DNA of 64,000 bases from Cytobacillus oceanisediminis (GTDB lineage Bacteria > Bacillota > Bacilli > Bacillales > Cytobacillaceae): NCBI RefSeq assembly GCF_022811925.1, contig NZ_CP065511.1, forward strand, positions 1,915,501-1,979,500, given 5' to 3'. This document shows, piece by piece, positions 44,355 through 47,432 of this stretch (position 1 is the first letter of the stretch; every line of letters begins with the position of its first letter). A program made the position numbers and the translations under genes. A model generated the notes under the pieces. That model had not been told where the DNA came from. It saw only the letters and a program-made list of their open reading frames with translations, and did no database searches.

Positions 44355-44543
44355 TTTGTAAGGAAACCGCAACATACTTTCTGGGTTTGGGTTCTATATA
44401 TTAAATAGCTAAAAAAGCAATTATCATGTACAATATATATCGCCATCATTTAGAATGTTAGTTTAAGAATTTAAAAATGAATATGACCAGAGGCATTAAA
44501 AAAGGATTAGATTGTTCTGTTTAACACGAGAGGATTGGTAGAC

Positions 44544-46004
44544 ATGGAATTACATAAATTGCTGCGATTTTTGCAGCCTTATATGACTTATAAAGGGGAA
44601 AACCCGGAAATCACAGCGATTGTTAACGATAACCGGAAAGTTACACCTGGAAGTCTGTTTGTTTGTATTGAGGGGTATACGGTGGATGGCCATGACTTTG
44701 CAGCTTCTGCTGCTGAAAAAGGTGCAGCAGCTGTCATTGCCCAAAAAGAATTGAATTTGGATATCCCAGTTATAGTGGTAAAGAATACAAAACGGGCCAT
44801 GGCCGTGCTGGCTGATGCTTTTTATGGACAGCCGAGCAAGCAGCTTCATTTAATTGGCATAACAGGCACTAATGGCAAAACAACAACAAGCCATTTAATA
44901 GAGAAAATCCTTGCCGATGCAGGAAGGAAGACGGGCTTAATTGGCACGATGTATACGAAGATTGCCGATGAAACCTTTGAAGTGAAAAATACCACTCCTG
45001 AAAGTTTGACTCTGCAAAGTACATTTAGAAAAATGGCAGATGCAGGTGTAGATTCAGCCGTAATGGAAGTGTCTTCGCATGCACTTGATGAAGGGCGCGT
45101 TCATGGCTGTGATTTTAATATAGCCGTATTTACAAACCTGACTCAGGATCATCTGGATTATCACAAAACAATGGATGAATACAGGAGAGCAAAAGGGCTG
45201 CTTTTTGCCCAGCTCGGAAGCGCCTATAATCATGGAGAGCCGAAGTATGCCATTTTAAATTCAGATGACTCTGCTTCTGCAGAATATGAAAAATCGACGG
45301 CTGCTCATGTCATTTCCTATGGGATTGATCAGGAAGCTGACATTCGGGCAATTAATATTCAGATGACTGCTGGCGGTACGGAATTTGACTTAATCTCTCC
45401 ATTCGGGAAGCATAAGATTTCTCTGAAAATGATAGGCAAGTTTAGCATCTATAATGTTCTTGCCAGTATAGGTGCAGGAATCGCTTCAGGAATATCAATC
45501 TCGCAAATCATCAAATCTGCTGAAGAAGTTAAAGGTGTAGCAGGCAGATTTGAAACCGTAGATGCAGGTCAGGATTTTTCTGTGATTGTTGATTATTCAC
45601 ACACTCCGGACAGCCTGAAAAATGCTTTGGAAACGGTAAAGCAATTTGCCCTGAACCGCATTTTTGCCATCGTGGGATGCGGAGGAGACAGAGACAGGTC
45701 CAAGCGGCCGCTAATGGCTGAAATTGCATGCCAGTACAGTACAGACCCGATCTTTACTTCTGATAATCCCCGAAGTGAAGACCCGATCCAAATCCTGAGG
45801 GATATGGAAGAGGGAGTAAAAGGTGAAAGTTATAAAACAATCGCCGATCGAAAAGAGGCCATTCACTATGCGGTGAAAAATGCCAGTAAAGGAGACGTTA
45901 TTTTAATAGCTGGCAAGGGTCATGAGACATATCAGCAGGTAGGGAACCAGGTTTTCGACTTTGATGACCGCCTTGTCGCAAAAGAGGCTATAGAGGAGCG
46001 ATAA
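44544..46004 (+). CDS. murE: UDP-N-acetylmuramoyl-tripeptide synthetase MurE (meso-DAP type)
   Basis: MurE adds the third residue of the peptidoglycan stem peptide. Start at ATG 44544 ([10 protein letters not shown]), nine bases after GAGAGGA; 486 residues. Domains: the N-terminal UDP-binding domain (to about 95), the ATP-binding central domain with GTNGKTTT (108-115), and the C-terminal domain. DNPR at 407-410 is the residue pattern that selects meso-diaminopimelate, so the wall is A1gamma type like B. subtilis. The next gene starts two bases after its stop. Confidence 0.97.
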
Positions 46005-46005
46005 A

Positions 46006-46455
46006 ATGTATTTGACGTATCGGGATTTAGCGGAACTGTTTCCGGCCGTAAAAGGGATAAAGGATAATGAGCTGGAATTTCATACGGTCGCTTCGTCCTC
46101 TTCCGCCCTGCAGCCAAAAGGAATTTATATTCCTTTTGGAGAGGCCGAAAACCTGAAAGAAGCTATTGAAAAAGGGGCTGTTGCTGCTCTCTGGCATGAG
46201 AATGCCAAGACGCCGGCATATACCCCGAATCATTTCCCTATTTTTTATACAAACGACTTAACGAAAGGCTTAAAGGACATCATGAAATTATATATAGAAA
46301 AATTAAGCAAATCAGAAGAAAACATGAACACAACTAATTTCCTTATTTCAGGTGAAAAAAGTCTTAAAGAAAACGAAGCAACATATGATATTGCTGTGAT
46401 GGCTGAAAGATTAGCGGAAGCTGCAGGAAATGACAAGCAGGAAAGGAGGGGATAA
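46006..46455 (+). CDS. orphan Mur ligase N-domain-like protein between murE and mraY
   Basis: A 149-residue protein that resembles only the N-terminal UDP-binding domain of Mur ligases: [36 protein letters not shown] parallels the MurE segment [18 protein letters not shown]...[11 protein letters not shown]. The P-loop and C-terminal domains are absent; instead it ends in a polar tail. It starts two bases after murE with GAGGAGCGATAAA as ribosome site and ends just before mraY, so it is tightly embedded in the operon and probably expressed. It could be a remnant of murF, which is often in this slot in other bacteria, or a small binding protein. The low conservation of the tail leaves this open. 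Confidence 0.65.
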
Positions 46456-46457
46456 GT

Positions 46458-47432
46458 ATGATGGAGCAAGTTATTTTTTTCACAATATTGGCAGGTTTTT
46501 TAATTACTGTTTTGCTGTCTCCCATTTTTATTCCCTTCCTGAGAAGATTGAAATTCGGGCAAAGCATCCGTGAAGAAGGCCCAAAATCCCATCAGAAAAA
46601 GACGGGTACACCGACAATGGGCGGAGTCATGATTCTTCTTTCAGTCACGGTGACCACGTTGCTTATGACCGGGAAATTTTCAGAACCTACTGTAGAAACA
46701 TATTTGCTGCTGCTGGTTACACTGGGCTTTGGACTTCTCGGTTTTCTTGATGACTTTATTAAAGTAGTATTAAAGCGCAACTTAGGTCTGACTTCAAAGC
46801 AAAAGCTGCTGGGCCAGATTATTATTTCTGTTATTTTTTATTTTGTTTTCAAGCAAAATGATTTTTCAACAGAAGTGCATATTCCGCTGACAGACATTTC
46901 GATTGATTTGGGCTGGGGATATGTTTTATTTATTATTTTCTGGCTTGTCGGATTCTCGAATGCTGTCAATCTGACAGATGGACTTGATGGACTTGTCTCT
47001 GGGACTGCTGCAATCGCTTTTGGAGCATTTGCGGTATTGGCTTGGAATCAATCCCAATTTGAAGTATCCATTTTTTCTGTAGCTGTTGTGGGAGCGGTAT
47101 TGGGTTTCCTTGTCTTTAATGCCCATCCTGCAAAGGTGTTCATGGGAGACACAGGATCACTGGCTCTGGGTGGAGCTATTGCGACTATAGCCATCCTGAC
47201 AAAACTTGAAATCATCCTGATTATTATCGGCGGTGTTTTTGTTATTGAAACTTTATCTGTTATTTTACAGGTGGCATCTTTTAAGACCACTGGGAAACGG
47301 ATCTTCCGTATGAGCCCGCTCCATCATCATTATGAATTGGTGGGCTGGTCAGAATGGCGGGTTGTCGTTACATTCTGGACCGTTGGCCTATTGTTTGCAA
47401 TCTTAGGAATCTATATTGAGGTGTGGGTGTAA
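46458..47432 (+). CDS. mraY: phospho-N-acetylmuramoyl-pentapeptide transferase MraY
   Basis: MraY transfers phospho-MurNAc-pentapeptide to undecaprenyl phosphate to make lipid I. The 324-residue protein has ten predicted helices. It shows TPTMGG near the N-terminus, the catalytic aspartates in GFLDDFIKV and [12 protein letters not shown], and the HHHYEL motif close to the C-terminus. AAGGAGGGGATAAGT inside the end of the previous gene is its ribosome site; its stop touches the murD start. Confidence 0.97.

Follow-up and report, generated by a model that had tools for sequence, protein, structure and literature searches.

The murE–mraY locus

The window, meaning the whole 64,000-nucleotide stretch of Cytobacillus oceanisediminis DNA analysed here, contains an ATG-started open reading frame (ORF) of 149 amino acids at 46006–46455 on the forward strand. 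An initial annotation had described it as wedged between murE and mraY and kept within the operon. The sequence confirmed this position, and retention in the operon is supported too. The annotated spacing of two bases to murE and three to mraY was right in being tight but wrong in its exact figures: 1 nt separates the ORF from the murE stop at 46004, and 2 nt separate it from the mraY start at 46458. The locus comprises the following features:

44535–46004, forward strand: murE, the upstream neighbour (NCBIfam PRK00139.1-4, E 4.3e-197)
45993–45998, forward strand: GAGGAG, SD-like, for the orphan ORF, inside the 3' end of murE (sequence)
46006–46455, forward strand: orphan ORF, truncated MurF of 149 aa (ORF call, relatives, tree, hhalign)
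46006–46317, forward strand: MurF N-terminal domain, residues 1–104 (hhalign; AF2 model and structure matches)
46318–46452, forward strand: C-terminal tail, residues 105–149, MurF similarity not detected (hhalign probability <1%)
46362–46397, forward strand: conserved nucleic-acid element TCTnAA-N14-CATATGAT-N4-CTGT, inside the tail (frozen synonymous codons, flanking-gene control)
46442–46451, forward strand: AAAGGAGGGG, SD-like, for mraY, overlapping the last codons of the orphan (RRG) (sequence)
46458–47432, forward strand: mraY, the downstream neighbour (ORF translation)

The codons AGG AGG GGA underlying the SD-like AAAGGAGGGG are conserved. After mraY, ORFs on the forward strand read as murD and then further dcw genes, as judged from translations only; among the dcw neighbours in the window, a profile check was made for murE alone.

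Residues 1–104 resemble the N-terminal domain of MurF

Single-sequence profile searches with the orphan protein gave no Pfam or NCBIfam match at E ≤ 10, and at just 149 aa it did not match TIGR01143, which covers the central and C-terminal MurF domains. Sequence searches of the PDB returned nothing useful (matches at E 1.1 and 0.85 were noise). The search against PF01225 that had been proposed failed as well: this family was absent among those matched by 40 orphan members at E ≤ 1 (0 of 40), and none of the four PF01225 matches in the own genome (5.58 Mb, two contigs) is the ORF, one of them being the murE beside it.

Profile–profile comparison and the predicted fold bear out the annotated Mur-ligase N-domain. 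Using hhalign, residues 1–104 aligned to the full MurF encoded in the murE–mraY slot of other genomes with a probability of 99.9% (E 7.5e-31, score 206) and 33% identity over these residues, while the match to ddl-linked MurF was weaker (98.7%, E 3.8e-16, score 111). The structure prediction that had been suggested for the N-terminal part yielded an AF2 model whose predicted fold agrees with the N-domains of MurF and MurE. Foldseek ranked PaMurF first for this model, ahead of MurE N-domains (for example 2xja and 1e8c). The second rank was taken by 8r6s_Q (E 3.6e-4), a 539-residue chain of a plant plastid complex that shares the fold of the orphan's N-domain, whereas the orphan consists of the N-domain only. 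8r6s_Q is the MurE-like subunit of plastid-encoded RNA polymerase, in which a Mur-ligase fold plays a structural part. A stretch had been read as MurE-like; the assignment to the Mur family stands, but the nearest relative is slot MurF rather than MurE, with the sequence profiles compared to MurF only. On profile evidence, residues 1–104 are thus a MurF N-terminal domain, and their nearest counterpart is the full-length slot MurF of related families.

The slot protein lacks the catalytic parts of MurF

The survey of murE–mraY gaps that had been called for was made on 60 order-level loci, which were fetched because they matched A1, a profile of 40 orphan homologues (one, L197, runs off its contig without mraY). 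The slot held a full MurF of 448–460 aa in 25 loci and a truncated form of 108–161 aa in 34. All 25 full slot MurFs carry the P-loop G[ST]NGKT together with D[ST]R and [DN][GA]H, the last being a wider form of the strict DGH found in 21 of them. None of these motifs occurs in the 34 order-level truncated proteins or in 93 family long forms, and all three are missing from the protein in the window. Slot MurF, the UDP-MurNAc-tripeptide:D-Ala-D-Ala ligase, therefore shares slot and N-domain with the orphan, but the orphan lacks the P-loop, the central and C-terminal domains, D[ST]R and [DN][GA]H, and has an additional tail unlike MurF. The annotated loss of the P-loop and the C-terminal domain was correct. 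Lacking both the nucleotide-binding motifs and the catalytic domains, the orphan cannot be a ligase. The initial annotation had also suggested that it might bind a UDP-sugar precursor. In the MurF N-domain it is presumably D[ST]R and [DN][GA]H that contact the nucleotide, and because the truncated proteins have neither (0/34 and 0/93), such binding is not supported and is unlikely.

A full murF lies elsewhere, next to ddl

Among 72 chosen genomes, TIGR01143 detected one MurF above cut-off in each, except for two in G013. This sole MurF lies in the slot in 25/25 genomes with a full slot gene and elsewhere in 34/34 with a truncated one, so that the pattern is reciprocal: the slot is either full, or truncated with murF elsewhere. 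Of the murF genes located elsewhere, 20 were fetched, from 16 truncated genomes and from 4 with a short or no remnant; ddl is directly upstream of every one. This reciprocity and the ddl linkage point to catalysis at the ddl locus and to a slot copy that was cut down. An essential cell-wall ligase has thereby changed its gene place, being found in the murE–mraY slot in some families and next to ddl in others. When the own genome was searched with the orphan, the only match besides itself was the N-terminal part of a murF at C1:489716 (464-aa frame, E 5.5e-5), which follows a 365-aa ORF taken as Ddl (locus L035). A full murF next to ddl had been suggested as a check and was thus found; by these searches, the one full MurF of this genome is the ddl-linked copy.

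When 96 N-domain rows were placed on a tree, the 50 truncated ones grouped without exception in a single clade (100/99), and every one of the 21 ddl-linked MurFs fell into another (100/100); the tree rests on 114 columns with unsettled bootstrap, and shared motif loss could also group the truncated rows. One truncated clade together with a full murF elsewhere near ddl argues for an old murF relic, which the initial annotation had considered and which is further supported by the N-domain resembling slot MurF. As judged from these comparisons, we show the ORF to be an old remnant of the dcw-cluster murF, cut before the P-loop.

G013 (locus L134) belongs to the same genus, lacks the orphan and encodes two full MurF-like proteins above the TIGR01143 cut-off (frames of 470 and 493 aa). 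Its slot measures 124 nt, and by eye traces of the orphan's helix region remain.

Distribution is wide and retention patchy

Within the genus sample, 36/36 genomes matched, 34 of them in a frame below 185 aa; in G004 the match covers only residues 79–148, and the only matches in G013 and G035 are frames of 470–497 aa. At family level, 102 of 151 genomes matched A1 at E ≤ 5.4e-36 (hand count), and at order level 110 of 199 at E ≤ 1e-12. By frame length, the 110 comprise 41 truncated forms, 68 frames of at least 450 aa and one frame cut by a contig end (G212). The 41 truncated forms fall into 13 family labels, including the family of the window. The 68 long frames are not all in the slot, as G240 and G296 have empty slots. 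No relative was detected in the viral contigs searched.

We mapped slot contents on a quick FastTree of murE with 187 slots (3 of 190 were dropped). The N-domain was present in 62, only the word CATATGA in 35, neither in 64 and a full murF in 26. The domain label changes 27 times on this tree, with at least 20 changes forced by starred branches, and four full-murF rows were placed, with modest support, within the truncated part. As read from this tree, the N-domain is dispensable and is lost often across relatives.

L265–L270 (family label f11) have murE–mraY gaps of 315–504 nt without orphan match, and in L243 (G304) 395 nt lie between a full murF and mraY that are GC-richer by eye and perhaps represent an inserted element.

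Selection acts on the N-domain

The proposed dN/dS analysis gave values of 0.17–0.42 over the N-domain against 29 relatives with dS <1.2, and the orphan frames of genus relatives are free of stops. Residues invariant in the alignments used include G17, Q36, G39, W63, P70, Y72, P74 and F77. As measured by these substitution ratios, we show that purifying selection maintains the N-domain. A decaying pseudogene is ruled against by dN/dS and the stop-free genus frames; contrary to this general frame integrity, the N-domain is broken in G004 and L161 (G081). In L161, the frame break affects the N-domain only, with the tail intact and ending 1 nt before mraY.

Over 527 pairs, pN/pS was 0.37 for residues 2–100 and 0.61–0.72 for three tail stretches; the tail peptide is kept more loosely than the N-domain. 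In the tail core (residues 117–132) it is a low pS (0.20 versus 0.46) that raises pN/pS.

The tail carries a constrained nucleic-acid element

The initial annotation had missed that the last 45 residues are unlike MurF and conserved at the nucleic-acid level. Compared with MurF, residues 105–149 reached an hhalign probability below 1%. By eye, TKDL can be set against TYDI and the tail thus against the strand-helix of the MurF P-loop; given the hhalign value, we do not claim this correspondence.

Across 93 distinct family long forms, several tail codons are frozen: T126 is ACA in 82/82, Y127 TAT in 91/91, D128 GAT in 90/90 and L119 CTT in 62/62. Outside the tail, by contrast, Y72 is TAT in 67 and TAC in 24, and D7 is GAT in 66 and GAC in 24. 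Mean relative codon entropy is 0.89 for positions 3–84 versus 0.30 for 117–132. Counting a column as frozen if at least 60 rows are present and at least 99% share one codon, we found 5/59 such columns in the orphan, 0/341 in murE and 2/278 in mraY at the same loci. The five are 119, 126, 127, 128 and 148, the last lying within the SD. Since the rows are related, p-values for frozen columns are not to be taken literally, but the flanking genes share this kinship and serve as a fair control. Frozen third positions suggest that nucleotides rather than the peptide are constrained. By these codon statistics, we show a constraint at the nucleic-acid level in the tail around CATATGAT. A second stretch with few synonymous changes lies at 46258–46302 of the window (orphan codons 85–99; for example K87 AAA 47/47, L89 TTA 47/50).

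CATATGAT is found within 140 nt of mraY in 88/92 family long forms and in 0/25 full-murF loci. It also occurs there in 36/56 family slots without a strong long match (a set in which nine still keep the domain) and in 12/34 order-level truncated forms; the latter fraction argues against a general occurrence of the tail element. The 36-nt pattern has a single exact site in the own genome. Across 21 genomes it occurs once, at mraY, in 12 and is absent in 9, namely one of the genus and 8 from other families. We considered a regulon for the element, and no second exact copy exists in the 21 genomes examined.

Relatives without the domain often retain the tail in the form of a short ORF coupled to mraY. 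In the 36 short slots bearing CATATGAT, the stop-to-stop frame spans 41–65 codons in 31 and 129–132 in 5, and 35 frames end between −8 and +15 nt from the mraY start; L157 has no stop within the stretch read. A start codon lies 17 or 19 codons before T126 in 27. The invariance of CATATGAT in these short forms is by construction, as they were picked from the 56 by that word. This does not apply to TCT at a fixed offset (35/36), CTGT (23/36) or the A after CATATGAT (33/36). L260, L275 and L281 (family label f9) have slots of 117–124 nt with, by eye, a short frame (containing RLNMFLKTYEYPE in L260) that is perhaps a divergent tail.

Scanning 45700–46700 for one promoter type, with sigma-70-type −35 and −10 hexamers, revealed 0 sites versus 2.0 expected in shuffles. 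By eye, the element also shows no −35 matching the consensus for sigma E or sigma K, and we name no sigma factor. The RNA did not fold more stably than shuffled sequences (mean z −0.3 for 40 of the 88 family long forms, −0.42 in a set of 36 and −0.06 in a set of 12); these scores give no support to a hairpin hiding the mraY SD, which we had considered as a candidate. Internal SD–ATG starts in the 93 long forms numbered 39, versus 39.9 expected under synonymous shuffling.

A non-catalytic remnant with a putative second role at mraY

The interpretation offered by the initial annotation is, overall, partly supported. We consider it somewhat probable that the ORF is a murF remnant in which two functions are combined. 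The retained N-domain would serve as a non-catalytic protein–protein module that interacts with neighbouring Mur or MraY proteins, and the 3' tail would have a second, nucleic-acid-level role just 5' of mraY. The tail might act as a control element, as a translated coupler that passes ribosomes into mraY, or as both; a role of its own directed at mraY would account for the frequent survival of the tail where the domain has been lost. The element accompanies truncated, not full, murF. In a more specific and rather tentative version, the slot would be a dual gene: a non-catalytic MurF N-domain and, in its 3' end, a conserved feature that governs mraY, either as a cis element or as a coupled mini-ORF. 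MraY carries out the first of the peptidoglycan-synthesis steps that take place at the membrane. If the element before mraY is real, it would mark a control point in a pathway targeted by antibiotics.

A mere translational spacer would fit the close spacing on both sides (1 and 2 nt), the short forms ending at the mraY start and the many independent losses of the domain; murF would have been cut down to an open frame that couples murE translation to mraY, with an idle protein. A spacer needs no particular sequence, yet the N-domain is constrained, both in its dN/dS and in invariant residues such as G17, Q36 and W63, and we regard this explanation as unlikely. We see little prospect for the tail being a small coupled protein or leader peptide of its own that controls mraY, with an incidental N-domain. 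Tail codons are frozen in the long forms, and the 36 motif-picked slots keep a frame of at least 41 codons, with a similarly placed start codon in 27. Against this, internal SD–ATG starts do not exceed the number expected from synonymous shuffling, constraint extends to the N-domain itself, and frozen third positions speak for nucleotides rather than peptide. It is improbable that the N-domain is a sensor or chaperone that binds UDP-MurNAc-peptide and regulates MurE, MurF or MraY: its predicted fold matches the N-domains of MurF and MurE and its slot position is conserved, but the truncated proteins (0/34 and 0/93) lack the presumed nucleotide-contact motifs D[ST]R and [DN][GA]H that all 25 full slot MurFs carry. 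A chance or decaying frame, to which missing Pfam and NCBIfam matches and patchy losses might point, is hardly conceivable, as the truncated forms span 13 family labels at order level, make up a single clade and are under purifying selection; it is already ruled out for the long form.

For the preferred reading of a murF remnant with two functions, a partial parallel is the Bordetella pertussis MurE–MurF fusion, which according to the abstract of PMC6420597 interacts with MurG. This offers published support for Mur enzymes forming complexes, and such assembly resembles the role proposed for the orphan. In contrast to the orphan, the fusion is bifunctional, with MurE and MurF activity, and that abstract describes no truncated, non-catalytic Mur protein. 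The murE–mraY operon of Bacillus subtilis is treated in PMC1925097 and PMC9931155; the former reports an internal sigma E promoter for spoVE–murG, a precedent that lends plausibility to a further internal signal without demonstrating it. We found no report of a truncated murF in the murE–mraY slot among the open-access papers searched.

Many lineages have kept this single-domain MurF relative, mostly under the label 'hypothetical protein'. Named carriers include Cytobacillus, Neobacillus, Mesobacillus, Niallia, Robertmurraya and Heyndrickxia. Where the orphan is named, NCBI mostly lists it as hypothetical protein and JGI often as UDP-N-acetylmuramyl pentapeptide synthase. Three records titled Paenibacillus, Pseudomonas and Chryseobacterium (L041, L045 and L056) carry an orphan of the Bacillaceae type, and their names are therefore probably wrong.
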